Assembly (NCBI GenBank): GCA_012033255.1
Contig: JAAUSF010000001.1
Span: 62,001-126,000, forward strand
Direction: 5' to 3'
Length of the DNA stretch: 64,000 bases
Origin: Cyanobacteria bacterium RU_5_0
Lineage (GTDB): Bacteria > Cyanobacteriota > Cyanobacteriia > Elainellales > Elainellaceae
Part shown: piece after piece, positions 12,001 to 49,061 of the stretch
How positions within the stretch are numbered: the first letter of the stretch is position 1
Layout of the letters: the number at the start of each line of letters is the position of its first letter
The notes under the pieces: model-generated
Seen by the model: only the letters and a program-made list of their open reading frames with translations
Databases searched by the model: none
What the model was told of the DNA's origin: nothing
Made by a program: the position numbers and the translations under genes

Positions 12001-14136
12001 CTGACGACGGGCGAAACCCTCCGCACATTTGAGGGGCATATTGCCGCGATCCATTCGATCGCCATGAGCCTGGATGGACGTTACGCCCTTTCCGGTAGCG
12101 ATGACCAAACCCTAAAACTCTGGGATGTGAATACGAGCGATTGTCTACGGACGTTTAGCGGACACAGTGCCGCCATTCATGCTGTTGCATTCAGTGCCGA
12201 TGGACACTATGCGCTCTCAGGCAGCGATGATCAGTCTCTTAAACTGTGGGATGTCAATACAGGCGATTGTTTGCGAACCCTCACCGGACATTCTGCTGCC
12301 ATCCAGGCGGTTGCTTTTAGTCTAGACAGCCGCTATGCTCTCTCTGGCGGTACCGATCGCACCCTCAAACTGTGGATTTTGGATTGGGAGCTTGCCGATC
12401 GAGAATCCACTCAATGGGATGAAGGAGCTAGACCCTACCTGGATGTATTTCTTGCCCTGCATACGCCCCGGGCTGCAACGTTACCTACCAATCGACAACC
12501 GAGTGAACAAGAAGTCGCTCAGGCACTCCGTCCTCAAGGAACTCCCGTTTGGACAGATGCAGATCTCAGCAATCTGATGCAGACTCTCCGCTATGCCGGA
12601 TATGGCTGGCTGCGCCCGGAAGGAGTGCGACAACAATTAGTCACGCTAACCCGTGGATTGATCCACCAGACGGTTGTGCAACCCGTTGCTAAACAAGCAG
12701 TCGATGCCACGGTGTTCCCAACGGGTTTTGCCATCGACAATCCTACTGTCTTTCCAACTGAGTTCATTGAAGCGGAAACGGCCGCTAAGGTGATTTTGAC
12801 GGTTACAGAAGGCACCCTCAAAGGCGAAGAGTACACATTCCGCGATCGCACAATTTGCATCATTGGTCGTGCTAAAGATTGTCATCTCCAGCTTCCGAGT
12901 GACGAGAACCACAAAACCGTTTCCCGCTATCATTGCCTGTTAGATATTGATCCCCCGACCATCCGTATCCGCGATCTCGGCAGTCTGCATGGCACTTATG
13001 TCAACGGTCAGATTATCGGACGCCGTAAGCCCAACCAATCTCCGGAAGAGGGTGTTCAGATGAACTCGCCTGGAATTGACCTGACGATGGGGGATGAAAT
13101 CAAGCTGGGTAAAACGGTCTTCAAAGTTCGGATTGATGCGCCTAACGCCGATCGAGAGCGAACGATCGCGACTTCCTTTGCAACGGCAATTGGGGATCAA
13201 ACGGCGCTGTTCGATCGCCGTGATCTCAACCAATCTGATGCACCCGTGGCAAATGGGAGTCACCCTCAGAATTTGTCGATCGACGGTTACACGCCCTTAC
13301 GTCAATTAGAGAGTGGCGAATTTAGCGAGGTCTATTTGGCACGAGATAGCCAGAACAACCAACTCGTCACCCTGAAACTACTGCGAACAGAAAAGGGACC
13401 TCAATCGGCGGCGATCGAAACGCTGTTGCAAGATGTCGAGAGTCTGCGCGGTTTACAACACCCCAACATCATCCAACTTTTGAATTCTGGCTACTCGAAT
13501 GGGGCGCTTTTCTTTGCTCAAGACTATTGTGAAGGCAACACTGTAGCGGAACTCATTCAACGACGCGGCGGACGCTTATCTGTGGAAGAAGCGGTGTCGA
13601 TCGCCGCGCAAGTTTTAGAGGGGCTGGAATATGCCCATGATGCCGAAGTTCCACTCACCAGAGCCAATGGCAGGTTTGCTCAGGGACGCGGCTTTATCCA
13701 TTGCAACCTGAATCCGGCAACTATCCTGCTAGCGACGAGCCAAACGGCTCAGGTGGCGAAAATTGCTGACTACGGTTTAGCCCGTTCTCTGGATCAAGCC
13801 GGATTGCGAAATCAATCCACTAGCACCGCCACTAATCCTTCGGCATTTATGCCGCGTCAACAAGCCGTAGATTTCAAATACATCAGACCAGACATCGATA
13901 TTTGGGCAGCCGCTGCTTGCCTTTACTATATGCTCACAGGTGCCTATCCCCGCGATTTTGGCGATCGTGATCCTTACCTGGTCTTGCTGCAAACAGAACC
14001 GATCGCCATCCGCGATCGCGATGCTTCTATCCCCAAACAACTTGCCGAGTTAATTGACCTCGCCCTAGTGGATGCCCCTGAAATCTTCTTCAAAAATGCA
14101 ACTGCCTTCAAGCGGGCATTGAAGAGCATCGCTTAG
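9067..14136 (+). CDS. giant WD40/FHA protein with two degenerate protein kinase domains
   Basis: The 1689 residues contain, in order: a kinase-like domain (about 15-280), a short TPR-like part (290-345), seven WD40 repeats (430-730), a helical linker (755-815), seven more WD40 repeats (820-1110), an FHA domain (1240-1360, with SRYH and GSLHGTYVNG) and a second kinase-like domain (1405-1689). The first kinase keeps the glycine loop, AVK and DFG, but HRDLKPEN reads HQNATPDN (N150 for the catalytic Asp). The second reads HCNLNPAT (N1547) and DYG. Both are therefore probably pseudokinases, and the protein a phosphothreonine-reading scaffold. It stands alone with its own upstream region. Known relatives are Pkn2-type WD40 kinases of cyanobacteria. 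Confidence 0.9.
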   Translation: MIMNQSSVQWQAGDLILDLYRVIGILGRDEFGEVYKVRHLGWNIDLAVKTPKPEMVAAVGGVENFERRIESWINLGQHPHLVGCYYTRRLESHPLVFVDYVAGGSLRQRIETRRLYANGTASSLRRILDIAIQYAWGLHYAHEQGLIHQNATPDNAMMTPDGVVKVSDFGLGWAQVAYCAPEQAQQGTITPRTDVWGWGLTLLEMLLGRRTWASGTLASQALAHYLETGGKDAQIPMPAQMAELLKHCFQENPEQRPANLREVAIELQSLYQQVVGSTYPRQEPNIPRETACTLNNHAVALWDLGRPEESLRLWDQALAIQPHHQESIYNRGIVLWRSGRIADDNTLLRQLDASRTQADDWTVDYLLSLVHLERGDYQTALRLLESIQARGTQQDDIEAMIALVRERLPYSRQLLPEFGDRAAALRNTPYMITAIALSPTGHYALSGGDDQTIRFWEVASGKSWVFRGHQGRVSSVTFSPDGSNVLSGSADKTVKLWNLASTSHLHTFGGREERASGLRRFLGGGSNQSQKDAHTSLINAIAISPDGRYVLSGSDDRTIKLWEVATGKCLRTFKGHRERVFAVVFSPDRQHILSASDDQSIRLWSIATGGVVRTLDGHQRLTSIALSPNGQFVLAGDSPVRMWDIMSGQVVRTFEGHESEVKAVAFSPDGRSILSGADDSRLKLWDIATGRCLRTFEGHESGIHSIAVSQDGRYVLSTDGSVMKLWAVHCTTPPTYAPLRLSHLPMPDVVITGDRMYEQELAQAQAALSQGDAVAAASRIRRARSQSGYNRAMEAVQAWLNLYPYLPRQAFNGAWEQIAYTRHMDVIGTVAFSPDGNQALSGGADTTLKLWDTASDRCLLSFEGHRGSVEAVTFSPDGRYALSGSTDTTLKLWDVSTGDCLRTFEGHGGAVHAVAVAPKGRYALSGSADGILKLWDMTTGHCLRTFTRHRDRVTAVTLSPDGRYALSGSLDKTLKLWDLTTGETLRTFEGHIAAIHSIAMSLDGRYALSGSDDQTLKLWDVNTSDCLRTFSGHSAAIHAVAFSADGHYALSGSDDQSLKLWDVNTGDCLRTLTGHSAAIQAVAFSLDSRYALSGGTDRTLKLWILDWELADRESTQWDEGARPYLDVFLALHTPRAATLPTNRQPSEQEVAQALRPQGTPVWTDADLSNLMQTLRYAGYGWLRPEGVRQQLVTLTRGLIHQTVVQPVAKQAVDATVFPTGFAIDNPTVFPTEFIEAETAAKVILTVTEGTLKGEEYTFRDRTICIIGRAKDCHLQLPSDENHKTVSRYHCLLDIDPPTIRIRDLGSLHGTYVNGQIIGRRKPNQSPEEGVQMNSPGIDLTMGDEIKLGKTVFKVRIDAPNADRERTIATSFATAIGDQTALFDRRDLNQSDAPVANGSHPQNLSIDGYTPLRQLESGEFSEVYLARDSQNNQLVTLKLLRTEKGPQSAAIETLLQDVESLRGLQHPNIIQLLNSGYSNGALFFAQDYCEGNTVAELIQRRGGRLSVEEAVSIAAQVLEGLEYAHDAEVPLTRANGRFAQGRGFIHCNLNPATILLATSQTAQVAKIADYGLARSLDQAGLRNQSTSTATNPSAFMPRQQAVDFKYIRPDIDIWAAAACLYYMLTGAYPRDFGDRDPYLVLLQTEPIAIRDRDASIPKQLAELIDLALVDAPEIFFKNATAFKRALKSIA

Positions 14137-16101: not shown

Positions 16102-16472
16102 ATGACAAATGATCAAACTCAGTCGGTGGTTCAGCAATTACTATCCTGCCTAAGAGCTGATAGCCGCTCTTCAAGTGAAATCGCTCGACTAGCTCTGTGA
16201 GTCAGCCAACTGTTTCGCGTATGCGACGGTTCGATGGGAAGCGTCAGCGCATCAGTCAGTCATTCAATAAGCTATGCAATTTCTATGATGTGCTATCTGT
16301 TACAGATGGTAAAGCTAGTCATAGATACGATGATTTACTGCGAGACGCTATTATTGATGCATGGGACGGAACAGAGGCAGGTGGAAAAGCGTTGCTTGCA
16401 GTGATTAAGTGCCTGAAAGGGTTAAACAGAAAAGTAGATGACACAGCGGGAGATTCACTCGGACATATCTAA
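16102..16472 (+). pseudogene. HTH transcriptional regulator split by a one-base frameshift
   Basis: The frame from ATG 16102 encodes a helix ending in SSSEIARLAL and stops at 16195. The frame one base off continues from GTG 16197 with VSQPTVSRMRRF. Together they form a helix-turn-helix (IARLA-x-VSQPTVSR), so one base appears to be missing near 16193. The rest (AIIDAWDGTEAGGKALLAVIKCL) is conserved-looking. If the break is real, the C-terminal part could still be made from the GTG. The gene opens an operon with the ImmA/IrrE and PIN-like genes. Confidence 0.6.
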
Positions 16473-17484
16473 CCGTCAGATCGACAGGATCTTTGGTTCA
16501 CTGGAATCTGCTGGCTTCCCGCGCAGCATGCAAAATGTGCTGTTACCTGAATGGGTAACACCGGAAGTATTGTCAGATACTTCGGCATCATTAGAAATCG
16601 CAGCGATTCTCGCAAAGCGGCTTGGTCTTCGTACTAGTCTTCTTTTTGATGCAAATCCTCGAGTCGAATCGCTTCGGCGACGTGACGTAAAATACAAGCG
16701 TTCAATTCCCAACAAGTCGAAGAACCTGACGGCATCTACAGCAATTGCAGTTAGTGTTGCTGAATCGATCGCAGCAGCTTGTCGTGTGGAATTTATTCCA
16801 TTTGTCGGTAGTGCTAATGCTCTCCGTCAAGAGGTGCTGACTTCCTTTCCAGGTAACTGGCTAGGGCTGAGAAATTTACTCCTGTCTTGCTGGTCGCATG
16901 GCGTACCTGTGATTTATCTGGCTGAACTTGGCATCGGTGTAGCGAAAATGGATGGCATGGTAATTCATACAGACAGCCGACCCGTCATCATTTTGTCAAA
17001 AGCGTCTCCTCTCTGGGCGTGGCAACTCTTTATTTTGGCTCACGAAGTCGCTCACTTGGCACTGGGACATGTGGCTCCTAATGAAGTATTGATTGATGAG
17101 GAACTTAGCGAAGACTCCTACGCCCTGAAGGATGCTGACTTGGACGAGCGTGCGGCTGATATGTTCGCACTTGAACTATTAAATGGTAGATCAAATGCAA
17201 CTTATGTCTCAGCAGATAATCAGATTAATTTTAGGGAATTAGCCCATTCAGCATTTGAGCATGGCAAGGAACACCGTATCGATCCTGGGCACATTGCGTT
17301 GAACTTTGCGAATCAGTCAGGGAAATGGGGTATGGGTATTGAAGCCGCAAAGGTGCTACAAGGTGAGAATCCACCCGCACCAGTAATTATTAACGAAGCG
17401 ATGTGGGGCGGCATCAACCCTGAAACACTGCCTTTGGAGACCCTGGAATTCCTTGGTAGAGTTACTGGATCGCACCTTGAGTGA
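16438..17484 (+). CDS. ImmA/IrrE-family metallopeptidase
   Basis: The protease motif HEVAHLALGH (H-E-x-x-H) lies near residue 202, with a downstream DERAADMFA segment supplying the third ligand region, as in COG2856/ImmA-IrrE proteins. These cleave or inactivate a partner repressor. The N-terminal 120 residues (MQNVLLPEWVTPEVL onward) are the usual antitoxin-like region. ATG 16438 overlaps the HTH gene by 35 bp; the internal ATG 16528 is a good alternative start. It overlaps the PIN-like gene by four bases, so the two are translationally coupled. Confidence 0.85.
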   Translation: MTQREIHSDISNRQIDRIFGSLESAGFPRSMQNVLLPEWVTPEVLSDTSASLEIAAILAKRLGLRTSLLFDANPRVESLRRRDVKYKRSIPNKSKNLTASTAIAVSVAESIAAACRVEFIPFVGSANALRQEVLTSFPGNWLGLRNLLLSCWSHGVPVIYLAELGIGVAKMDGMVIHTDSRPVIILSKASPLWAWQLFILAHEVAHLALGHVAPNEVLIDEELSEDSYALKDADLDERAADMFALELLNGRSNATYVSADNQINFRELAHSAFEHGKEHRIDPGHIALNFANQSGKWGMGIEAAKVLQGENPPAPVIINEAMWGGINPETLPLETLEFLGRVTGSHLE

Positions 17485-18128
17485 GGTCGTTCATGGATCG
17501 GCTGCTTCTGATCGATAACGATGCCTTACTTAAACTTGCACGTTATGGGCTACTTGATGAGGTCATAGCTCGATTCGATTTCACAATCACCGATGTACGG
17601 GTACTTGCGACTGCAAAATACGTCCTCCTTCCCGCCAAAAATCGCTTGCTTTTTTGTGAGGATGAAGAGAGCTACTCTAGGCTAAAATCATTCCTCAAAA
17701 TCGCTAAACCCCTGGATGCTAGATCGGCTGACCCAGATCTACTGGATGCAATGAGTGCGGTACAAAATATTGATACCGGAGAAGCCTTGCTGCTTGCAGT
17801 AGGTGCTACTGCTAGAGATGCACTTATCATTACAGGCGATAAGCGATCGCTAGCAGCACTTTGCTCCCATGAATCTGTCGCTCACCTCGCCAATGCACTG
17901 GCGGGTCGTGTGATATCGATGGAAGTGTTGTTCTCGTACTTAGTCGAGAATCAATTTACTCACGTCCAAGAGTGCGTGAGATCAAAGCCTGATGTCGATA
18001 AAGCATTGAACATTGCATTTGGCGTAACTATTCCTGCAAGTTATGAGTCAGTGCAAGAGGCGCTAGCTTCGTATATCAATCATCTGCGTGCTGTGACAGG
18101 GGACTTACTATACACAAAATCTGGTTAA
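17481..18128 (+). CDS. PIN-like domain protein (probable nuclease toxin)
   Basis: The 215-residue protein opens with LLIDNDALLKLARYG, has a central DTGEALLLA and then ALIITGDKRSLAAL. These are the spaced acidic residues of PIN nucleases. GTG 17481 overlaps the preceding stop (GTGA); ATG 17493 is the alternative start. Its coupling to a COG2856 protease and an HTH regulator suggests a three-part toxin module in which proteolysis of the regulator releases the operon. The nuclease activity is inferred from fold motifs only. Confidence 0.7.
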   Translation: MRSFMDRLLLIDNDALLKLARYGLLDEVIARFDFTITDVRVLATAKYVLLPAKNRLLFCEDEESYSRLKSFLKIAKPLDARSADPDLLDAMSAVQNIDTGEALLLAVGATARDALIITGDKRSLAALCSHESVAHLANALAGRVISMEVLFSYLVENQFTHVQECVRSKPDVDKALNIAFGVTIPASYESVQEALASYINHLRAVTGDLLYTKSG

Positions 18129-38006: not shown

Positions 38007-38288
38007 TTAAGACACTTTGGGCAATTCCATCGGTTTTAACCCAAGTCCTAGTTCCTTCAGCAACAGAAACAATTGATGAAACGTTCTATCCATTGAAGTC
38101 GGTTGGACAATTTTTAGCCGTTCAAGCAAGTCTGCCTCTTTGCCGCTTGCCTTTGCCACATTCTGCAACGCTACCAAAAACAAATCTGCATCGCCTTCCT
38201 CTAACGCCGCATTGAGATAGGCAACTGCTCGTTCTGGGTCTTGCAAATATCCCATCAACTCTTGCTCGTAGCTTCTGCTCTTAGGCAT
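38007..38288 (-). CDS. HigA-like antitoxin (addiction module antidote)
   Basis: MPKSRSYEQELMGYLQDPERAVAYLNAALEEGD starts an approximately 93-residue protein of the HigA-like antidote family with a Cro/CI-like HTH (LFLVALQNVAKASG). The frame is open to 38363, but that extension is the other-frame reading of the toxin gene. Its toxin partner just upstream is decayed, so this is an orphan antitoxin. It might still protect against related toxins or act as a repressor. Confidence 0.8.
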   Translation of the reverse strand: MPKSRSYEQELMGYLQDPERAVAYLNAALEEGDADLFLVALQNVAKASGKEADLLERLKIVQPTSMDRTFHQLFLLLKELGLGLKPMELPKVS

Positions 38289-38500
38289 CATCCCGACTCC
38301 TGTAATCCATCCAATACTGTTGCGCTTTTTCAATATCTCGTGACTTAGAGCTTTTATCCCCACCCCAAAGAATTACAATCCCTGGTCACTCACTCGCCCA
38401 AAATACACTCGATAGCCTGCACCCGTGTCAATCCGAAACTCAAACATTCCATCTGTGCAATCAGTTTATAATCACCTAGATTGCCTTATTTAACCTTAAT
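38281..38500 (-). pseudogene. decayed HigB-type (RelE/ParE superfamily) toxin
   Basis: Minus-strand fragments in three frames read GNLGDYKLIA, MFEFRIDTGAGYRVYFGRV, and VILWGGDKSSKSRDIEKA with QQYWMDYRSRDDA before the stop at 38281. They follow the HigB/COG3657 pattern. At least two frameshifts and one in-frame stop separate them. The last codons overlap the antitoxin start by eight bases, the normal toxin-antitoxin arrangement. Confidence 0.8.
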
Positions 38501-38593: not shown

Positions 38594-38962
38594 CTAACGA
38601 CAGTCTAAAAGCTGCGTTTTGGAATATGCCTTTTGCAATTCTGTTTGGCGTTGCTTATCAGAATGACCATAGGTTGATAAGGTTTGAATAACCGCAGGCA
38701 TGGGCGGTGAGACAAAGACGTCCTGACCCAGATTGCTGAACAGGATGACCGTTTGTAGGCGCAATTGACGCCGTTGATGCTGGCGGTACAAGTTGGTGTA
38801 GGTCTGTGAAACCTGTTGCCACTGATCAGGAGGGCAGTAGCTGCGATCGATCAATACGGTAATCGTTGGAATGGCAAAGAACCAACTGATCAATAGTCCG
38901 GTGATCAAAAACGCTAGCCAACTGAATCCTAGTGTTTTAAGGAGTCGTGTGTTGAGGTTCAT
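38594..38962 (-). CDS. small membrane-anchored protein of unknown function
   Basis: One N-terminal hydrophobic segment (LGFSWLAFLITGLLISWFFA) is followed by a charged part with a QHQRRQLRLQ helix and two cysteines. It is 122 residues, probably anchored and facing the periplasm. It follows the VWA lipoprotein gene by 27 bp and is likely the last gene of that operon. Confidence 0.6.
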   Translation of the reverse strand: MNLNTRLLKTLGFSWLAFLITGLLISWFFAIPTITVLIDRSYCPPDQWQQVSQTYTNLYRQHQRRQLRLQTVILFSNLGQDVFVSPPMPAVIQTLSTYGHSDKQRQTELQKAYSKTQLLDCR

Positions 38963-38989
38963 AGTTGGGATGTTTTGAACGTAATTGGA

Positions 38990-40720
38990 TCAGAGATTTG
39001 TTTGGAACAAGTCCTTGAGCAGAATTTGTACTTTTTCGGGAGTACCTTCGTACACAGTCCCTTCTCGAATGGCAGCGATCGCCTCTAATTCTTGTTGATT
39101 CACTTCTCCGTAGGCAATCGGGTAAATCCTCACGCCACTGTGCTGAATCACATCCTTAATTTGTTCAAATTCCAGTCCATCGGTTCGTTCTCCATCGGTA
39201 AGCAGCAGTAGGTAAAATTGTCCCTCTGGATCGGTTTTTTGCTTTTCCATCAGATCGGCTAAACCAACGGCAACTCCGTCATAAAGTGCTGTGGCACCAT
39301 TGGCTTGAAGTTGATTAATCGCAACAAACAATCGTTTTTGCTCTGACATGTTAAACGGAGCAAGGGCAATCCGGCGAATGGGGCGATCGCCAAAAGTCAC
39401 CAAGCCGATCTGATTTCCTGCGTTGATCTGCTGGCTAGCAAATCGGAGGGCATCCTGAACCGCTTTCAGACGACCATTTTGCTCCATCGAGCCACTTGTA
39501 TCTATGACTAGCTCCATGTACACCGTTTTGCCACCATCTTTACGCTGTTTCCAGAAGGTCTGAGCCGCTTTCAGCACTTCCCCTGACGGGATGGGCGGAA
39601 ATTCACCTTGCTTCAGATACTCAGTTTGTTCATAGCCCTGTTGCTCTGCCAATTGTTGCATAGGAGCAGAAGTAGCAAATTTGGCAAACGCTTGCAGGGC
39701 TTCTCGTTCAGATGCCGTATTCCACTCAAATCCAACTAGGGGAGAGACTTCAGGAACACCAAAGGGAACATAGGCGAGTTGTTCAAATCCTGGTTGTTTC
39801 TTGAGAGTGACATAGCTCTGATATGCCATGACGATCGCCTGGAATGTTTGGGGATCACGCAGCCAAATTTGTTTCAAGTCCAGGTAGGTGGGCGTTGTTA
39901 AGGCAATTTGTTTTTGGAAGGTACTAAACGCTGAACTAGTTTGAGGAGATTCTAGTTCGGCAACCGTCAAGGGTTTGCCGTCTTGAGCATGACCAGCGGA
40001 GCGCCAAAGCAAAGTATACAGAAAATTCAATGCCGATGAAGCGATATAGGGATTAGAATAGCCAACTTTGATCTGACCCGCCAGAATGGTATTTAATACG
40101 CGATCGAACGTCACCTTTCCACCCTGCCCCAATGCTGCATAGACCTGGGGCTGGATAGCAAAAATGGCTTGGTTTGAGACTAATGCAGGGGCGATCGGTT
40201 GTAGTGGCACTCCTTCTGCTTTCAGAATCTCTACCCACAAATCGTTGGCCGGGGTGTAGCCTGCGGGTTCTCCTTTCTTAGCCGCTAGAATTTGTGCGCC
40301 CAATCCAGACGGAATATTGCGAATTCCAACTTGTATCACCTCCCCAGAACTGAGAGTTTGTCGTTGCTGATTAAACTGTTCAACCACATCAATTAACCAG
40401 CGTTCATCTTGTCGTTCTCCATTCGCTTTTTCAGCCGAACTGTAAATCTCAACATATACAATATTTGGGTCATCAGTGGGTTTAGCACCATACAGAGGAA
40501 AGGTATTTGGATCGGGTACAGAATCAGTCAGGGGAGGAATCTCGATATTGTAGGTTTCGGTATCGTTTATCGTCTGAGATTCCACTTGAATCTTGGGTAA
40601 AAGCTGTTCACGGAGATAGCGATCGGCGCTTTCAAATGAATCGATCGACGGTGAACAAGCCCATAGCAAGCTGAGACATAGACCGATCGCTAGCCAAAAT
40701 TTGAAGTGTAATTTTTTCAT
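38990..40720 (-). CDS. lipoprotein with solute-binding-like and VWA domains
   Basis: The 576-residue protein has a lipobox signal (LSLLWAC, Cys about 22). A solute-binding-like region (about 65-370, with VSNQAIFAIQP and WLRDPQTFQAIVMAY) is followed by a von Willebrand A domain with MIDAS motif DTSGSMEQNG, GLVTFGD and LLLTDGERTDG. It should sit on the outer face of the inner membrane and bind metal-dependent ligands. It lies five bases after the membrane coiled-coil gene and belongs to the CHAT/kinase locus. Confidence 0.88.
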   Translation of the reverse strand: MKKLHFKFWLAIGLCLSLLWACSPSIDSFESADRYLREQLLPKIQVESQTINDTETYNIEIPPLTDSVPDPNTFPLYGAKPTDDPNIVYVEIYSSAEKANGERQDERWLIDVVEQFNQQRQTLSSGEVIQVGIRNIPSGLGAQILAAKKGEPAGYTPANDLWVEILKAEGVPLQPIAPALVSNQAIFAIQPQVYAALGQGGKVTFDRVLNTILAGQIKVGYSNPYIASSALNFLYTLLWRSAGHAQDGKPLTVAELESPQTSSAFSTFQKQIALTTPTYLDLKQIWLRDPQTFQAIVMAYQSYVTLKKQPGFEQLAYVPFGVPEVSPLVGFEWNTASEREALQAFAKFATSAPMQQLAEQQGYEQTEYLKQGEFPPIPSGEVLKAAQTFWKQRKDGGKTVYMELVIDTSGSMEQNGRLKAVQDALRFASQQINAGNQIGLVTFGDRPIRRIALAPFNMSEQKRLFVAINQLQANGATALYDGVAVGLADLMEKQKTDPEGQFYLLLLTDGERTDGLEFEQIKDVIQHSGVRIYPIAYGEVNQQELEAIAAIREGTVYEGTPEKVQILLKDLFQTNL

Positions 40721-40724
40721 TGCT

Positions 40725-42119
40725 TTAATCTCCTAAAATTCCTCGTGCGTTTTCTGCGATCAGGGTTTGTAACCGAGTTGAGATGACAGAAGCAGTGGTC
40801 AATGAACGTTGCTTCAAGTGTTCTAGCGCCATCTGATCGCGCAATTCCTGAAGTTGGTCATGAGTGAATTGAAGCCGAGTTTGGCTACTTTGCAATTGTT
40901 GTTGTGCCAACTCTCGATAGCGTGGTGTTTGCACTTGTTGAATCACTTGCAACGCCTGTACCAGTTGGTCAACCAGATCCAGGACGGTGTGCAATGTTTC
41001 GAGTAAATCTGGAATGAAAGTAGATTCTTGTGCGGCAATTTGTGTGGCTATCTTCTGGATGTCCTGAGCTTGTTGCTCAACCGATTGCCACAGCGATCGA
41101 GACGCATCGGGAATTTGGTTGTTCAGAACATTGATGTGATTGAGAAAAACATCGATTTGCAGTAGGTTTGCAGAACTTGTTGAAGGTGTTGCTGAATGAG
41201 TTGTTTTGTGAGATTGAAGTTGTCTATACCAGGAAACGATCGCCAACGCTACAATCACAGCACCACTCAAGAGAACGATCGATCGTATTCCTAACCACCC
41301 CATAAAGCCGATGTAACCGATCGCTAAACCAAGCAACAAGAAATAAGTATGGGGTAATCGAGAGAAATAATGCTGAAGTTGAGTCGTCATGACTGGATGA
41401 CCTCGCTGATAGTTTTCAGAGTGCCAGAGCTGCATTGTTGCACCACGCATTTGAACGTTTATACATTCAATGCGACTTAGAAATTTTCGACGTTGATCTC
41501 TTTTGAAGTACTGAAGTGGTGATACCAATTGCTTGAAAACCCAGTTGATCAATTGAACAACTAAAAGAAAAGCGCAAGGTAGGCTAAAAAAGCAAACAAT
41601 GTAAAGAAAGCCACAAAGAAAATCAATGACAGGTTGCCATCGATTGTATTGCAATGAGACGAACAATTTTTCTTCAGGATTCTCGATAAATTTGTTGAAG
41701 TGATGATTCAAAATCTCTAATCCTGGATCATTACGAATAGAGTAAGTTTTAATTGGATAAATACCACTTCGAGAGCGTAATGAAGCAACATACTTAGTCT
41801 GGTTTTCGCCGTCTGAGGAAGAGATATGCTCATCAATCGCTATTCCTTGAACGTCTTTGATCTCCTGTTCTGAAGAACGTAATAAAGCCTGATATTTTAA
41901 TATGCAATCAATGCGAATAGAGTTTACTTTCTGGCAAGTCGCCTCGCTTGGCTGACCAATCCACAATGCAAAATAAATAGAGAATAGAATAGCGAAAACA
42001 ATCGATAGATTTATCAAAAGCATATACAACATCAATAGCCCCCAAAATATTGCTTTGACTGTCTTCCGAAGTACTTTGCAGATACGCGATCGCAACGTTG
42101 GCGACGATGAGTTTGGCAT
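40725..42119 (-). CDS. membrane protein with C-terminal coiled coil
   Basis: Hydrophobic segments lie near the N terminus (WGLLMLYMLLINLSIVFAI), the middle (FLCGFLYIVCFFSLPCAF) and about residues 265-305 (two helices). The last 130 residues are a coiled coil (QQLQSSQTRLQFTHDQLQEL). A TTG at 42200 would extend it, but ATG 42119 (MPNSSSPTL) is likelier. I do not recognise the family. Its place between the kinase and the VWA lipoprotein suggests a signal transmitter. Confidence 0.65.
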   Translation of the reverse strand: MPNSSSPTLRSRICKVLRKTVKAIFWGLLMLYMLLINLSIVFAILFSIYFALWIGQPSEATCQKVNSIRIDCILKYQALLRSSEQEIKDVQGIAIDEHISSSDGENQTKYVASLRSRSGIYPIKTYSIRNDPGLEILNHHFNKFIENPEEKLFVSLQYNRWQPVIDFLCGFLYIVCFFSLPCAFLLVVQLINWVFKQLVSPLQYFKRDQRRKFLSRIECINVQMRGATMQLWHSENYQRGHPVMTTQLQHYFSRLPHTYFLLLGLAIGYIGFMGWLGIRSIVLLSGAVIVALAIVSWYRQLQSHKTTHSATPSTSSANLLQIDVFLNHINVLNNQIPDASRSLWQSVEQQAQDIQKIATQIAAQESTFIPDLLETLHTVLDLVDQLVQALQVIQQVQTPRYRELAQQQLQSSQTRLQFTHDQLQELRDQMALEHLKQRSLTTASVISTRLQTLIAENARGILGD

Positions 42120-42770
42120 AGGTGGCAAACGAGTAGATTGAGGGATTGGTTTATAGAAAAGCTTTCGCAAGAAATGTTCGACATCCAGTTGGGCAACCAA
42201 GCAGGGATTGGATTTGGTGGCGATCGTAAGATTTGACTAGTTAATTGATCCGTCGCCTTCTGTAACCCCCACTCTTATCCTTTTGTTTGAAATAATTTGC
42301 CCAATTCCTTATCGGTAAAAAATAGGCTGGAGGGCGTGACCCACTTCATGGACAGCGATCGCTGCTGCAATCTTTGACATCTTTCCGCTCTCGCTCCCGC
42401 AGAATTGTTCGAGTCACTTCAATCGCAGTTATTCCATATTGGTTATCTTCCAGAAGAATCCGTTTCCAAGAACAATGCAGCCGGGGCGTTAATGCATCAA
42501 TTAACTGCTGGAAATATCTAGAACTGGTAGAGTTGCTATGGTGGTTGCTTTTAGGAACGTCCGATCGCATTAATTAGTTCTCCAGATGACGAAACTAATT
42601 CTTGAGCCGCTAAAGGACTGTCGGAAGCTGGAGTGAAATCCGCCGAAATTTTTACACAACTTTACATCGAGTTTGCTGAAAAAGTTAAACCCAAATAATA
42701 AGGAGTGATGCTCCTTACATCGATCGCTAATCTGAAACTTGGAATGGAATAACAAGCAACGAAAAATCGA
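42120..42770. other. intergenic gap with a protease-motif remnant
   Basis: This 650-bp gap separates the kinase gene from the membrane coiled-coil gene and may hold a second promoter. Apart from the short HEVGH remnant at 42309-42380, no gene is visible. Confidence 0.5.
42309..42380 (-). pseudogene. fragment with a zinc-protease HEVGHALQ motif
   Basis: A 23-residue minus-strand frame reads MSKIAAAIAVHEVGHALQP before a stop. It resembles the active-site helix of membrane zinc peptidases (YugP/Zn_peptidase_2 type) or M41 peptidases. No continuation is recognisable, so it is a relic at most. Confidence 0.3.
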
Positions 42771-44285
42771 TCACTGACGACGTAATATCCAAGACATTAT
42801 AAAAGTATAGATACCTAAATACATAGAGCCGCTCACAACCAGCCATGTAAAACTGCTTATAACTGGCCATATGGTACCAGCCTGCGTTTCGATATCAACG
42901 GGAGATAAGTCAAGTCGATCTACGGCAGCACTCATAGCAAACCACGGAATCAACCAGATTGCTCTTGGTGTTTTCTCTCTAATCACTGACCATCGGGCTG
43001 TTCCTGATATTGCACCAAAGATTGCCTGGTGCCAAACAGCATTCGCACCCAAAACCACCGTAGCGTTTGTCAAAGTTGAGCTAAAAACAGATGCAGGTAT
43101 CCACCAAGCAATTTCAGAAATCCATTTTTTCAGGACTAACCATTCTGCAACGCCAACACAAAAACCTAGCACAGTTCCAATTGTGAATGCACTGACTATC
43201 TGCAAGACATTTTCATCTTTATAAGTGTCAAGCACACCTAACCGTAGACGGCTATCAATACTATAAAAAATAATAAACAGGATAAAAACGATGACATAGC
43301 CAGCCGTAAAACCTAGACATGTTGCGATAAAGAACCTGAACCTGAAGTGCCAACCTACCTGCGATCGCTTGAGCGGGTATTGACGGGATGGAGGTTGAAC
43401 TGTTGAAACTAACTGATTGGGTGACAGTGGCACAGTTTGAGGTAGAATGCTTTGTCGTAAATTTTCGAGAGACTGTAACGCCTCTTGAGCAGATTGATAA
43501 CGCTCCTTGAAGTGACAGCGAACCATCCTATCTAAAACTGCGGTGAACTCTGGGCTAGCTTGCGCCCAGTTGTGCCACAGAGTTTCACCTGTGGTTGGAT
43601 CTTCTGGTAACTGCTGTGGTGCAAGGCCGGTTAGGGCTTGAATTCCGATCATTCCCACAGCATAGATATCACTACTGCGTTTGGGTTTGCCCGCTGCTTG
43701 TTCACCTGGCATGTACCCGGGTGTCCCAATTACGATCGTCCGACTGCTTGAGCCTTGAGTACAGGTTGTTTGAGCAACGGTTTCTTTGACAGCACCAAAG
43801 TCGATTAAGACAATTTTGCGGGTGTGTTTATGCCGAATTAGATTCTCAGGTTTAATATCCCGATGGATCACATTCTCCTGATGAACAAATGACAACACTC
43901 CCAAGATATCTTTTAACAAATCAATGACTTGAGTTTCAGACCAGGGACTTCCGGGAAGTATCTCTTTACTCAGATCATTGCCCTCAATAAATTCTTGAAC
44001 CAGATAGAATTCTTGATTCTCTTCAAAGTGAGCAAATAGCTGTGGGATTTGCTCATGCCTATTTCCTAACCGATAAAGAACTTCAGCTTCAGCATCAAAA
44101 AGCCGTTTAGCTGTTTGTAGTATAAAAGTATTAGTGCTTTGAGGCTGGAGTTGTTTGACGACACAAAACGGTTGACCAGGAAGTTGTTGATCAACGGCTA
44201 AGAAAGTTTGACCAAATCCGCCACTGCCCAAGTGTTTTGTAACATAATAGCGTCCACCCAGCGTTCTACCCAGCATGGCATACAC
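42771..44285 (-). CDS. membrane Ser/Thr protein kinase
   Basis: The 504-residue protein has an intact kinase domain (about 10-270): LGSGGFGQTFLA, VVKQL, VIHRDIKPENLI and LIDFGAVKE, so it should be active. The C-terminal 200 residues contain four or five membrane segments (such as FFIATCLGFTAGYVIVFILF). Start could be ATG 44276 (MLGRTLGG). It lies three bases after the CHAT gene stop, so the two are co-translated. Its topology puts the kinase in the cytoplasm beside the CHAT domain. Confidence 0.92.
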   Translation of the reverse strand: MYAMLGRTLGGRYYVTKHLGSGGFGQTFLAVDQQLPGQPFCVVKQLQPQSTNTFILQTAKRLFDAEAEVLYRLGNRHEQIPQLFAHFEENQEFYLVQEFIEGNDLSKEILPGSPWSETQVIDLLKDILGVLSFVHQENVIHRDIKPENLIRHKHTRKIVLIDFGAVKETVAQTTCTQGSSSRTIVIGTPGYMPGEQAAGKPKRSSDIYAVGMIGIQALTGLAPQQLPEDPTTGETLWHNWAQASPEFTAVLDRMVRCHFKERYQSAQEALQSLENLRQSILPQTVPLSPNQLVSTVQPPSRQYPLKRSQVGWHFRFRFFIATCLGFTAGYVIVFILFIIFYSIDSRLRLGVLDTYKDENVLQIVSAFTIGTVLGFCVGVAEWLVLKKWISEIAWWIPASVFSSTLTNATVVLGANAVWHQAIFGAISGTARWSVIREKTPRAIWLIPWFAMSAAVDRLDLSPVDIETQAGTIWPVISSFTWLVVSGSMYLGIYTFIMSWILRRQ

Positions 44286-44288
44286 TCT

Positions 44289-47033
44289 TTATTGTTGACT
44301 GGAACACGGAACATCTTTCACTAGATCAAACCGCAACTGCTCATTCACCGTTACGATCGCCCGCGTGGTAATTTCTCGACGATCGCCTCTGGCATCAAAA
44401 CTGATCGATACACCTTCCAGGATCGCACTTGAGGCGGCCGCATCTTCTCGAATTCCAGTTTCAGATAATTTCTGTCGAATTTCTTGTCGAGTGACGGGTG
44501 AGTTTGAGGACAGCGAGATGGCTTGCAACACGGCTTGAACTGCCTCATAAGCTAGGGCCGTGCGTCGATTCAGATCACCACCCCAATAGTCATTGATTTG
44601 TTTGGCAAACGCTGCTGCACCGCATTGCTTCGGATGCCAGTCAACCGCAACGAATAAGCGATCGACGAGGGCATCTCCAGCCTGATCCACCACGTTTTGC
44701 AGATAGAGGGTATTTGCTCCCAAAACAGGTTTTTCTCCGTTGTTCAACTTGAGGATCTCGATCGCCTTCTGAAACGCCGTTGCATCGCCTGTGCCGCTAT
44801 CCGGTAGTATTGTTCCGCCATCTGGTAATACCGCCAGGGCATCTGCCTCGCTCACCTGCGGCGGCAATTGACGGGCATCGAAGGTTGGATCAGCGAGATC
44901 AAAGGTTGCCGTGACCGTTCCCCCATAAGCGTTGAGAACTTGAACGAACTGATGATACAAATCCTGGCTAAATAATTCTTTGCTGTTATAGAAAGCGACA
45001 ACTTTGGGTTGAGGTGTTTTGAGATCATTGATTAAATATCGCACCAACGTGTTGGCTTCCACGCGAGTCGTTGAAACCGTGCGGAAGAATACGTTGTTGG
45101 AATCACCACCGCAGTCTGAATTCGATTTCAGATCAACCGTTGTACTGGTTGGAGCAACCACTGCAAGATGACTGGGGGAATAGACCTTCAACGCAGCACA
45201 GGTATTGGGAGAGGTATAGTGTCCCACCACAGCCAGAATCCTGGGATTTTGAGAGAGGCTTTCTGCAACCTTCTCCGCTTGAGCAGGATTATTGCTATCA
45301 TTGGCAATCACAACTTGCAGGTTGATCCCCTGCTTAACAGCGACATCTTGCGCTTGCGCGACCCCTAAAACAATACTTGTCCCTGCGTCGAGGTTCAATG
45401 GGGCAGCCACCGCGATCGTGTAAATGGGTAAACTTGGGTTTTGGCGATGGCGATCGTTGACAAACGCATTGTTGCGATAAATCAGAATTTCTGGATCTTG
45501 TAGCACAGCCAATGCGGGTTGACTGCGGCTGGGATCATTTCTATTTTGTTCTGCCAGGTTGCGAAGGTCATCAAAAATTCTCACGGCATCGCCATATCTT
45601 CCTTCAGCAAAGGCGGCAATCCCTTGTTGTTTTAACAGGAGATGTAGGTCAATCAGTTGGGTTCTGCTATCCGCAATGGGCTTCTCACCACTGCTGATAA
45701 ATTGCTCGACTGGGCTGGCGCAGATTAAAGGAAAAATCTGCTGACAGCCTTTAATCACCGTTGGGGAGGCAAGAGCGATGAGTCCAAGCAAAACCCCTAA
45801 TCCAATTAGGAAATAATAATGACGACGAAGGCAAGGTAGCAAGCGAGACAGTAGCGATGGGGGCTGCGGGTGAGAAAGGGGCTGAGCGGCTGGCCAAACT
45901 AACTCTGGCTGCTGGGGGTTAATGCATACGACAGGTAACCAGGATGCGGCTGGAAACATGCCTTCTGTAAGTCGGAGGCGCTCACGAGCTTCCCGTACTG
46001 CCAGACAAAGCTGTCTACCCTGAGAGAATTCCTCCAAAAAGTAAAATAAAAACTGTCCAGCAATTTGGTCTGGTACTGGTTCCCGGTATACAATCATGGC
46101 TGGCACGTTCGACCTTGCCAGGGCTTCCGCAATCCCTAACCCATCACAGGAATTGAAAATCGCCAGTTTCAAGCCATTCCTGACCGCTCTCGTTAAACCT
46201 GGATGCAAATCATCCAGGTGTAAAAAAACATTCTCCCTAATCTGAATCTGTCCACTGATACCTTCATGGGAAGTAGCGTCTGTGGTGGAACTACTATGCC
46301 CTGCAAAAGCCAATATGTCCCAGGCTTGATCAAATAGCAAGCGAGATAACTCTTGCTCACTTGGCTCTGAGCATTCGACAATTTCTGCTCCACGCTGTCG
46401 GAGTGTCTCTAACGCTTTTGCATCTTGTTCCAATCGCAACCCCCCATGAGCACTGCCGAAAATGGCAAGAACTCTAACAGGTGCTTTCAGTGTGACAACT
46501 TGGCGAGGCGATCGAGTAAACAAGGCAAATTCGGCATTGTCCAGGTTGGTAAATAAGTCCCAGAAATGCCAGGGTAGCCTACGCAACAGTTGGTTTTGGT
46601 TACTATCTCCTGTATCGCAGCGAATGATGATGGGAACCGATCGATCTCTTCTGACTTCTTCATTGGCTCGAATGTGAGCACTCAAGCTGCTAAAGGCTTG
46701 ATTCCTAAACCATTTCATACAATAAGCTTTAAGCCTTTCGGCTCTTTGCTTCCATTTTTGATTTTCTTCTTCTTCGGATACGTTAGTTACCTGTTCAGGA
46801 ACAGCTTGCAATCTACGACTGCCTTCTAGTGATAGATCTTGCCACTCCTGATACAACGCTGGCATTTCGGATGCATCAGGAATACGAGGAAGGTCATCGT
46901 ATTCTTGAATAATCCGACCATCCTCTAGAATTTGAAGCGTCACCGTAAACCCGTCATCGAAGCTACCGCTACCAATCCGGAGAACAACAGCGACGTTTTG
47001 AGGAGGTTGGGAGCTAGAGGGGGGCTTAGCCAT
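44289..47033 (-). CDS. CHAT protease domain fused through the membrane to a periplasmic amino-acid-binding-type domain
   Basis: The 914-residue protein has a CHAT (caspase-HetF-associated) domain at about 130-375 with the His-Cys dyad FAGH246 and NSC296DG. A single membrane helix (about 406-425, FLIGLGVLLGLIALASP) follows, then a short TPR-like stretch (470-500) and a type I periplasmic-binding domain (about 535-914: IYTIAVAAPLNLD, ILAVVGHYTSPNTC). The design is a receptor: a ligand outside would control a caspase-like protease inside. It is flanked by DUF1822 and a membrane kinase in one operon. Confidence 0.88.
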   Translation of the reverse strand: MAKPPSSSQPPQNVAVVLRIGSGSFDDGFTVTLQILEDGRIIQEYDDLPRIPDASEMPALYQEWQDLSLEGSRRLQAVPEQVTNVSEEEENQKWKQRAERLKAYCMKWFRNQAFSSLSAHIRANEEVRRDRSVPIIIRCDTGDSNQNQLLRRLPWHFWDLFTNLDNAEFALFTRSPRQVVTLKAPVRVLAIFGSAHGGLRLEQDAKALETLRQRGAEIVECSEPSEQELSRLLFDQAWDILAFAGHSSSTTDATSHEGISGQIQIRENVFLHLDDLHPGLTRAVRNGLKLAIFNSCDGLGIAEALARSNVPAMIVYREPVPDQIAGQFLFYFLEEFSQGRQLCLAVREARERLRLTEGMFPAASWLPVVCINPQQPELVWPAAQPLSHPQPPSLLSRLLPCLRRHYYFLIGLGVLLGLIALASPTVIKGCQQIFPLICASPVEQFISSGEKPIADSRTQLIDLHLLLKQQGIAAFAEGRYGDAVRIFDDLRNLAEQNRNDPSRSQPALAVLQDPEILIYRNNAFVNDRHRQNPSLPIYTIAVAAPLNLDAGTSIVLGVAQAQDVAVKQGINLQVVIANDSNNPAQAEKVAESLSQNPRILAVVGHYTSPNTCAALKVYSPSHLAVVAPTSTTVDLKSNSDCGGDSNNVFFRTVSTTRVEANTLVRYLINDLKTPQPKVVAFYNSKELFSQDLYHQFVQVLNAYGGTVTATFDLADPTFDARQLPPQVSEADALAVLPDGGTILPDSGTGDATAFQKAIEILKLNNGEKPVLGANTLYLQNVVDQAGDALVDRLFVAVDWHPKQCGAAAFAKQINDYWGGDLNRRTALAYEAVQAVLQAISLSSNSPVTRQEIRQKLSETGIREDAAASSAILEGVSISFDARGDRREITTRAIVTVNEQLRFDLVKDVPCSSQQ

Positions 47034-47111
47034 AGACGAAAAGGGGGGAACGTCTGGAGATGGGAAATCTATTTACTAGATAAGCATGATCGATCGAGGC
47101 AGTACAATACA

Positions 47112-48311
47112 CTAAACCACAAAACTCTCGGTAAAGCTGGCATCATTGAGAACCACACGAGCATCGAAGCGATCGCCCTCGTCTGCCGTAAATTTGAATT
47201 GTATAGTTTTATCTCGCTGGCGCGATTCCACTTCAAAAAACGAATTTCTGGTTTCATCCAGCCCAATCAGCTTCAGACCCAACGGCAGCCGAGACAATTG
47301 CCCCAACGGATACACCCGTAACAGGATTAGCATTTTGTTATCGGACTTCGGCAACATCCCCACCATCAGGGCGACTGTATGCCCTGCCAGATAAAATCCT
47401 AAATCTTTCGCGCTGATCACTGGACAATTTGGATGGTGTGGATCAAGTTCCCACAACAACTCAGCAGACTGCCAGCGAATTTCATCATCCTGAGTCGTTT
47501 GGATTAAGTGAACTAAAGCATCCAGGGGATTCAGGTTAACCGGAACAGGTTGCCCTCGATCAGAAGAGCGGTAGCAAAGTTCTTCGATCCGGTGCTGAAT
47601 CAGGTTAACTGGAATGGGTTGTTCTCGATCGGGAGATCGGGAGTGATAGGATGGTTTGATCTGTCGTTGAATCGGCTCAAAATTTGCTCCACCTCGTTCA
47701 CATTGTGTTTCACGGAGTTGCAAAATTGATCCTCTGATTGATCCTCTTATCGGGTTCAACAAGTCTTCTGAGAATTGCCAATCGGGTTCAAATATCCGTT
47801 TCAGCCATTGTCTCAGTTGAATGCTAGGTTGTGGCGATCGCTCTAAAAACTGCTCAATTAATTTAGTCAGCGGTTGGAGATAGCTGAGTGGCAGTTCCGG
47901 CACCGATACAGATTCCACAAATCCTAACAGTTGTCCTTCCTGATAAGGTTCATCGATCTGAACGACAACGTAGCCAACCCGATCGTCCCACACCTCTTCT
48001 GGAACTGTACATTTGCGATCGCCCTGACGCACCGGACGACATTCTAAACAGCCTTGCAATGCAGGAATATACAAGTCTGCAATGTTTTCTAAGAGGCGAT
48101 CGAGCGGATTCCAACTCTGACTGGCATCTAAATCAGTATCAATTCCCAACAATTGCAAATAGCGTTGCATCACTAACACAGCGAGCGTGTTTCGATAAAC
48201 CTGGTTTGTTTGGGCTTGGGTCGGCTGCTGTGCGGCAAATTGATACGCCTGCCTTCGGTCAGTTGCCGTAATCGGAATGGCGATCGGAATAAGTGCATCA
48301 GTGTCAATCAT
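47112..48311 (-). CDS. DUF1822-family protein
   Basis: The 399-residue protein has the DUF1822 layout: an N-terminal LIPIAIPITATDRRQAYQFA, a middle NTLAVLVMQRYLQLLGIDTD segment and a C-terminal beta-rich part. DUF1822 genes occur in cyanobacteria, and I recall them next to CHAT and sigma-like genes. Here the repeats REQPIPVNLIQHRIEEL and RGQPVPVNLNPLDAL suggest an internal duplication at about residues 225-270. Function is unknown. Confidence 0.8.
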   Translation of the reverse strand: MIDTDALIPIAIPITATDRRQAYQFAAQQPTQAQTNQVYRNTLAVLVMQRYLQLLGIDTDLDASQSWNPLDRLLENIADLYIPALQGCLECRPVRQGDRKCTVPEEVWDDRVGYVVVQIDEPYQEGQLLGFVESVSVPELPLSYLQPLTKLIEQFLERSPQPSIQLRQWLKRIFEPDWQFSEDLLNPIRGSIRGSILQLRETQCERGGANFEPIQRQIKPSYHSRSPDREQPIPVNLIQHRIEELCYRSSDRGQPVPVNLNPLDALVHLIQTTQDDEIRWQSAELLWELDPHHPNCPVISAKDLGFYLAGHTVALMVGMLPKSDNKMLILLRVYPLGQLSRLPLGLKLIGLDETRNSFFEVESRQRDKTIQFKFTADEGDRFDARVVLNDASFTESFVV

Positions 48312-48365
48312 GATTCGTGTCAGAAAATTCGTGTCAAAGAAAATGTCTGGAAACTCTCGGAACTA

Positions 48366-49061
48366 TTATTCAGGCAACAACTGTTTGAAACAAGGGAAGC
48401 ATCGTCTCTTACAAAATTTTCTCAACGCCGACGGTTCAACTTCATAATCTTGGGCGATCGCTTTCCAGGAAAACTCTTCTGAATTCCTCAATACCGTCAA
48501 GATCTGAATCAACAAAACTTGACAGTTGACGTGAGGAGAACGCTGCGATCGACAATTCCTAAAAAGATGCGGATGATTTTGCACTAACTCCAGCCATTCT
48601 TGTATTGTTTCATCCCACCGATCGGGAAATGGCCCAATCTGGTAAATCCGCTCTTTATCCTGATCATCGATTGGAGAGAGTTCTCGGATGACATCCTGAA
48701 TCATCCATACTAGTTTTTGGTTAAACCAGGTTACAAAGCTTGCCTTTTCTGGATCATACGTCTGAAGATGCTCCATAAACCACACCCAGGTTCGGGATAG
48801 AGATTCGCTGTAGACATCGGGTGATATCTTTCCGCCACGCCAAATCAACCTGGAAGACTGCATGACTGCAATGATCAGATCTGCTGCCCGATTGAGATCG
48901 TCAGGCTGACAGGCTTGCTCAAATAGCCATCGACGGGCAGGAACATTGTTCATAATTTCCCGGAGCTTTTCCGGTTGCTGTAATAGCTTGCTCTTTTCAA
49001 TGGGGCTACTTACAGCCGCCTGAAGCAAACTAATCAACGGGGGAGTAGAGTCATTACACAT
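48366..49061 (-). CDS. sigma-70-like factor, non-canonical
   Basis: The 231-residue protein has a region-2-like segment (TWVWFMEHLQTYDPEKASFVTWFNQKLVWMIQDVI) and a C-terminal HTH-like part (SWKAIAQDYEVEPSALRKFCKRR). This looks like the sigma-like regulators found at the head of CHAT/DUF1822 loci. It is the first gene of the minus-strand run down to 42771 and may direct transcription of that operon. Whether it binds RNA polymerase is not shown. Confidence 0.7.
   Translation of the reverse strand: MCNDSTPPLISLLQAAVSSPIEKSKLLQQPEKLREIMNNVPARRWLFEQACQPDDLNRAADLIIAVMQSSRLIWRGGKISPDVYSESLSRTWVWFMEHLQTYDPEKASFVTWFNQKLVWMIQDVIRELSPIDDQDKERIYQIGPFPDRWDETIQEWLELVQNHPHLFRNCRSQRSPHVNCQVLLIQILTVLRNSEEFSWKAIAQDYEVEPSALRKFCKRRCFPCFKQLLPE

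Follow-up and report, generated by a model that had tools for sequence, protein, structure and literature searches.

The window analysed here is a stretch of 64,000 nucleotides (nt) from Cyanobacteria bacterium RU_5_0 (Cyanobacteriota; Cyanobacteriia; Elainellales; Elainellaceae), positions 62,001-126,000 of the forward strand of contig JAAUSF010000001.1 (assembly GCA_012033255.1). At window positions 38,594-49,061 it carries a locus of seven minus-strand open reading frames (ORFs), which encode a sigma-like factor, a DUF1822 protein, a receptor with a caspase-like CHAT domain, a membrane kinase and a cassette of three genes, i.e. a coiled-coil membrane protein, a lipoprotein with a VWA domain and a small membrane protein (Table 1). 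An earlier note on this DNA had described these ORFs as one signalling machine, and their strand and spacing were found to be as it gave them. The same bipartite promoter stands upstream of the sigma-like gene (P1) and in the gap between the kinase and the coiled-coil gene (P2). This gap measures 570 bp up to the TTG start codon of the coiled-coil gene, and ~650 bp up to a later ATG. For comparison, 80 related loci were taken from named cyanobacterial genomes, with gene calls that are simple ORFs; the genomes fall into kin groups, and the counts given below are not counts of independent events.

The DNA of the gap and the DNA upstream of the sigma-like gene are both conserved with two relatives, genomes G013 and G025 (Drouetiella), and the two stretches of the window are alike. 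Aligning both positions across the relatives gave a consensus that consists of a box A, TAAAGTTnnGTAA[AC] (TGTAAAGTTTTGTAAA), and a second element GAYAnnC, separated by 28 or 29 nt. The promoter recurs in relatives at both positions, i.e. before the sigma operon and before the cassette operon; Calothrix brevissima NIES-22 and Tolypothrix sp. FACHB-123 are two culturable relatives that have it at both. In 2.90 Mb of fetched sequence the two boxes matched 19 times at a spacing of 28 and 12 times at 29, whereas the other spacings averaged 0.98 matches (P ~2e-26). One locus had been fetched twice, and the 31 matches correspond to 30 distinct sites: 17 before the sigma-like gene or transcript 1 (one of them preceding a Band_7 gene just ahead of the sigma-like gene), 12 right after the CHAT or the kinase gene and 1 before a second VWA cassette.

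A weight matrix trained without the window's genome scored P2 at 39.7 bits and P1 at 37.6 bits (best background site for P1, 10.2). A second sigma-DUF1822-CHAT locus of the same genome reached 33.3 and 27.5 bits and a remote cassette 35.6, the next best site per sequence being at most 10.6. Twelve sites were found when the whole genome (5.88 Mb) was scanned with up to 2 mismatches, and reversed control patterns matched 8 and 3 times. Just three sites have fewer than 2 mismatches: P2 (0 mismatches, the best site of the whole genome), P1 (1 mismatch) and one before the sigma-like gene of the second such locus. Because the same promoter starts the sigma operon and the cassette operon, we take the two transcripts to be under one control, i.e. 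one regulon; the earlier suggestion that the gap may split the locus into two transcripts is thus supported by the position of P2.

The motif is present in all 10 members of the sigma clade to which the window belongs and absent from several other clades. It changes 7 times on the sigma tree, compared with a mean of 17.6 for shuffled labels, a difference that has to be read knowing that shared ancestry alone also clusters labels. Cassettes that stand alone, without CHAT, gave no promoter match. A generic sigma70 promoter and terminator scan gave matches no more frequent than in shuffles, and the search for known RNA elements (Rfam) returned none. The conserved DNA of the gap was also considered as a gene remnant; the promoter explains the part that is conserved with G013 and G025. 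The gap also holds a short minus-strand frame, MSKIAAAIAVHEVGHALQ (window 42315-42380), which by eye resembles a zinc metallopeptidase remnant.

Other copies of the promoter were seen in the following places. The second locus of the genome (G000:C67, L046) is a sigma-DUF1822-CHAT::binding-protein locus with weaker copies of both promoters at 4551 and 9926, the second one being followed by a 136-amino-acid gene of no assigned family. A third copy (G000:C7, 2201-2249, L222) lies 281 bp before a cassette of an SBP_bac_8/VWA gene and a coiled-coil gene with a transmembrane (TM) hairpin; over 49 bases this remote copy hardly differs from P1. In Desmonostoc (L298, G285:C49) a promoter at 7525 on the minus strand precedes an HlyC-like acyltransferase and a 1999-amino-acid RTX-repeat/Hint gene, away from the CHAT locus.

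Table 1. Features of the locus, in window coordinates.
Feature	Position	Strand	Basis or remark
Promoter P1	49136..49185	-	box A TAAAGTTTTGCAAA, 29 nt, GATAACC; upstream of the sigma-like gene
Sigma-like factor, 231 aa, divergent	48366..49061	-	TIGR02937 and predicted fold
DUF1822 protein, 399 aa	47112..48311	-	PF08852, E=2.7e-80
CHAT receptor, 914 aa	44289..47033	-	CHAT and Peripla_BP_6 profiles; one TM helix
Membrane Ser/Thr kinase, last gene of transcript 1, optional	42771..44285	-	Pkinase, E=2e-34
Promoter P2	42616..42664	-	box A TAAAGTTGTGTAAA, 28 nt, GACAGTC; in the gap, start of transcript 2
Coiled-coil membrane protein, 491 aa	40725..42200	-	four hydrophobic helices
SBP_bac_11 + VWA lipoprotein, intact MIDAS	38990..40720	-	profiles and motifs
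Small one-TM protein, 122 aa, last cassette gene	38594..38962	-	homologue after the VWA gene in relatives

The receptor combines a CHAT domain (residues 202-357, E=5.2e-11), a single hydrophobic helix (409-427) and a Peripla_BP_6 domain (551-861, E=2.5e-22), whose best PDB profile matches are branched-chain amino-acid binding proteins. The dyad H246 and C296 is invariant across 39 aligned homologues, i.e. it is never lost. The predicted architecture of an inner His/Cys dyad, one membrane helix and an amino-acid-binding type of domain outside was borne out by the profiles and the alignment. The region in front of CHAT is conserved and alignable among relatives; it may correspond to EACC2, and we call it EACC2-like. 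The profile scan found CHAT in 43/43 relatives, Peripla_BP_6 in 21 and CHASE2 in 11, and the interchangeable C-termini also include PBP_like_2, NACHT, WD40 and others. The outside domain of the receptor was also seen fused to Ser/Thr kinases (L035, L039, L043 and L048) and to a Peptidase_C14 caspase (L042). Sensor and output modules are therefore swapped, one sensor being combined with three kinds of output.

The gene order of the core is kept as well. In 65 of the 76 DUF1822 genes found in the 80 loci, CHAT follows directly on the same strand, and a detectable sigma-like gene precedes DUF1822 in 38 of the 76. There are several CHAT systems per cyanobacterial genome, with up to about a dozen CHAT matches in one genome. 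The core fits the class that Kaur et al. 2021 (PMC8195603) named from sequence: the part of that paper drawn on here describes a constant N-terminus of EACC2 plus caspase, a variable C-terminus and, in most cases, neighbouring genes for an extracytoplasmic function (ECF) sigma factor and DUF1822, and it proposes a succession of sensing, autopeptidase activation and transcriptional output. In the literature we found no experimental work on CHAT/DUF1822/sigma systems. Nine Nostoc loci (L165, L167, L171, L173-L175, L178, L179 and L181) share the arrangement DUF1822 (~322 amino acids), CHAT (~786) and an exported protein (~270), mostly without an adjacent upstream sigma-like gene.

The sigma-like protein matches TIGR02937 below the cut-off (E=0.0018), and members of its family have weak Sigma70_r2 matches. 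Its AlphaFold2 model (predicted local distance difference test score, pLDDT, 90) is a two-domain helical protein. The top Foldseek matches of this model are mostly sigma factors (sigH, AlgU, sigE, RpoE, sigL, sigB, sigK) with E values of at least 0.08, none being individually significant, and the hhalign comparison of the family with conventional sigma factors gave a weak match confined to the region-4 end. In other words, the earlier proposal of a sigma-like factor is upheld as far as a conserved gene in the expected place and a resemblance of fold go, but the profile match is sub-threshold and the predicted fold backs the assignment only partly. Genes of 440-500 amino acids in front of DUF1822 were considered as homologues of the sigma-like factor; the profile comparison was not significant, and one of them has Sigma70_r4.

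The DUF1822 protein is soluble and has no TM helix. Its AlphaFold2 model (pLDDT 88) consists of an N-terminal alpha/beta part, a low-confidence linker (~190-235), a helical part and a C-terminal beta-sandwich. It has no global or significant fold match in the PDB, and the search of the DUF1822 profile against PDB sequences found nothing. At about residues 224-262, in or beside the low-confidence linker, there is an internal duplication, SPDREQPIPVNL / SSDRGQPVPVNL.

The kinase begins 3 bp after the CHAT gene. As the earlier note had it, it is intact and membrane bound: the motifs GSGGFG, VVK, HRD and DFG are present and its tail has two hydrophobic helices. Directly behind the window's type of CHAT, however, a kinase is found only here and in G013 (62% identity). 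G013 has the triad and then the kinase, without the cassette, whereas G025 has the triad and then the cassette, without the kinase. The kinase is an optional, lineage-specific addition, and the view of it as a general component of the pathway was not sustained; being rare at such loci, it is more likely to be a modifier than a core part. By analogy with PknS, which phosphorylates EcfK according to the part of PMC13147305 drawn on here, it could phosphorylate the sigma-like factor.

The VWA lipoprotein has SBP_bac_11 and VWA domains, the metal-ion-dependent adhesion site (MIDAS) motifs DTSGS and LTDG, and a lipobox-like LWAC, all intact, in agreement with its earlier description. The N-terminal half of the coiled-coil protein is a separate gene in G025; the C-terminal half is a TM hairpin with a coiled coil. 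The family profile scan assigned no family to this protein or to the 122-residue protein. The C-terminal half occurs in 48 and the lipoprotein in 45 of 291 cyanobacterial genomes; they travel together, often with the small protein, a homologue of which lies behind the VWA gene in 28 fetched loci. The cassette stands behind the window's type of CHAT here and in G025, G285, G154 and G135, and in G104 (Pantanalinema) it lies a few genes downstream of tandem CHATs. In the genus g44 a CHAT protein of 604-619 amino acids, with the dyad intact, ends in the coiled-coil domain and its TM hairpin as a C-terminal fusion, and a VWA gene follows. On the tree of the VWA proteins the CHAT-linked members fall into separate clades, and the well-supported branches force at least 3 changes. 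Association of the cassette with CHAT loci has thus arisen in at least three lineages, in one case through a CHAT::coiled-coil gene fusion.

A non-homologous cassette, consisting of SBP_bac_8/VWA (VWA2) and a TM-hairpin coiled-coil gene (cc2) and present in 60/291 cyanobacterial genomes, served as control. CHAT linkage was seen in 14/48 cassette loci and in 0/40 VWA2 cassettes (Fisher p=8e-5, uncorrected for kinship, related rows inflating the significance of this value). In Lyngbya (L151) and Okeania (L162) VWA2 and cc2 do follow a CHAT gene, which is weak on its own as independent proof of linkage, none of 40 others being near CHAT; this linkage regained weight because the copy in the window's genome carries the promoter. 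Fusion, repeated linkage and shared promoter place the lipoprotein and the coiled-coil protein in the same system, and by virtue of the promoter before the cassette the lipoprotein, which may also present a ligand, would be an output of the pathway at the least. Elsewhere, transcript 2 contains the VWA cassette, a response regulator with a DUF2207 protein, DUF1614 with PBP_like_2, a PEP-CTERM-like protein with an S41 protease, or TPR, SBP and RTX-repeat proteins. Most transcript-2 genes encode envelope or secreted proteins, which would suit an extracytoplasmic response.

The reading that we favour, to which we give about an even chance, is a switch in which a CHAT-protease membrane receptor controls a sigma factor. 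Its two transcripts would share one class of promoter, and the outside signal would probably induce the receptor that senses it, together with a set of surface proteins. A small, probably amino-acid-like molecule would bind the outside domain, and the signal would cross the single helix and activate the CHAT dyad. CHAT would then probably cleave DUF1822, perhaps in its low-confidence linker, which is the first candidate for the cleavage site; DUF1822 would until then have kept the sigma-like factor inactive; this double role of inhibitor and substrate is proposed because of the analogy with Craspase. The freed factor would transcribe from P1 (a positive feedback), which gives the sigma-like factor, DUF1822 and the receptor, plus the kinase in this lineage, and from P2, which gives the three cassette genes. 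It would also transcribe a small number of further envelope genes, among them the genome's second VWA/coiled-coil cassette. What is supported of the earlier signalling machine is the coupling of a CHAT protease, under the control of an extracytoplasmic signal, to a sigma-like factor, with the VWA and coiled-coil proteins as members, but not the kinase as a general part.

Several observations weigh against this reading. The sigma identity is the weakest identification of the locus. DUF1822-CHAT pairs occur without a nearby sigma-like gene in some Nostoc loci, and 35/57 sigma-like genes have no motif. DUF1822 showed no similarity to Csx30 or to any solved structure in PDB searches by sequence and fold, and a kinship with Csx30 was rejected on these grounds. 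Most genomes carrying the cassette have it without CHAT. A spacing of 28/29 nt is unlike that of an ordinary -35/-10 promoter, and given the likeness of box A to two TGTAAA repeats an activator such as an OmpR-type regulator might read it, which we regard as unlikely.

If it did so as a global regulator (e.g. RpaB at HLR1-like direct repeats) together with the housekeeping sigma factor, the locus would be a light- or redox-regulated operon pair and the sigma-like product would act elsewhere. The two repeats are 10 bp apart and, in reverse complement, come close to HLR1, (G/T)TTACA(T/A)(T/A) twice with 2 nt between (PMC9241938), and box A stands, relative to the GATA box, where activators bind. 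However, the genome has 36 HLR1-like sites when up to 1 mismatch is allowed, whereas the bipartite site is confined to the CHAT-sigma loci and one VWA cassette and is lacking at cassettes without CHAT; a plain HLR1/RpaB box is therefore not favoured. The fixed spacing to an unusual GATA box and the tracking of the sigma clade likewise point to a dedicated reader, and we see only a minor chance for such an operon pair. A stand-alone envelope cassette that merely neighbours a functionally separate CHAT-sigma module would explain the many cassettes found without CHAT. It would not account for the gene fusion, the three linkages on the VWA tree and the excess of linkage over the control, it is weakened by the same promoter on both transcripts, and we consider it quite improbable.

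The locus might also be an EACC2-type conflict or cell-death system, in which caspase-like activation leads to suicide or to a response against invaders, as the part of PMC8195603 drawn on here suggests for the class. In addition to this class assignment, other members carry NACHT or WD40 domains, CHAT acts in defence in Craspase, and the kinase profiles match PD-T4-6, although these are generic kinase profiles. Against it speak the amino-acid type of periplasmic binding domain as sensor, the envelope or secreted products of transcript 2 (VWA lipoprotein, DUF2207, S41 protease, PBP), the absence of a nuclease, TIR or pore effector from the locus, and the several copies per genome. We therefore hold a conflict system to be rather unlikely.

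Three further observations concern the rest of the window. A small gene resembling an HI1420-type addiction-module antidote (PF21716, E=4.5e-8) lies at 38007-38363, just downstream of the locus. A 1689-amino-acid protein at 9067-14136 reads by eye as kinase, WD40 repeats, FHA and a second kinase, and an overlapping pair at 16438-18128, possibly a toxin and its antitoxin, resembles by eye a metallopeptidase of the ImmA/IrrE type together with a PIN-like protein.

Among known systems, HetF is likewise a cyanobacterial CHAT-domain protein, but the receptor scores 15.7 bits with the HetF profile NF045509, whose cut-off is 1200. MoxR-vWA ternary conflict systems have a cytoplasmic vWA protein and an adjacent MoxR ATPase, whereas the VWA domain here belongs to a lipoprotein that also has an SBP domain, and the scan of the locus genes found no MoxR. 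The EACC2-caspase/DUF1822/ECF-sigma class shares with the locus the constant N-terminal region with a caspase-like domain, the variable C-terminal sensor and the DUF1822 neighbour; the sigma-like gene would correspond to the ECF sigma neighbour of the class. The membrane kinase, the cassette and the two transcripts under one bipartite promoter are additional here and do not appear in the part of PMC8195603 drawn on here. The conserved cassette and the promoter are what is new: the promoter is the first concrete output for CHAT/DUF1822/sigma systems, which are common in cyanobacteria, and the locus gives the SBP/VWA lipoprotein cassette its first context.

Anti-sigma proteolysis by DegS-RseA-sigmaE (named in PMC10028731) also joins an outside signal, a protease, the release of an alternative sigma factor and envelope genes. 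It differs in that here the protease is a caspase-like domain within the receptor, and DUF1822 is soluble. In Craspase, the type III-E CRISPR system, the TPR-CHAT protease Csx29 cleaves Csx30, which relieves the inhibition of CASP-sigma, and CASP-sigma motifs occur in the system's own locus (PMC10028731). The locus described here likewise has a CHAT protease, a sigma-like factor, a putative sigma inhibitor and candidate sigma motifs of its own. The signal is RNA via gRAMP in Craspase and would be extracytoplasmic, via the binding domain, here; sequence and fold searches gave no relation of DUF1822 to Csx30, and the scan of eight genes at the locus found no gRAMP/Cas7-11 or other CRISPR part. 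It is possible, though we put it somewhat below an even chance, that cyanobacteria have a whole family of membrane receptors in which a caspase-like inner domain acts directly on a divergent sigma factor dedicated to the receptor. Every such pair would have its own class of promoter, from which the receptor operon and a small set of envelope genes, headed by VWA lipoprotein/coiled-coil cassettes, would be transcribed. Such a family would be a ligand-gated counterpart of Craspase. If CHAT does control P1 and P2 via the sigma-like factor, caspase-like proteases would act in photosynthetic bacteria as transcription switches gated by a ligand, and the logic of the CRISPR Craspase would be one case of a wider design.

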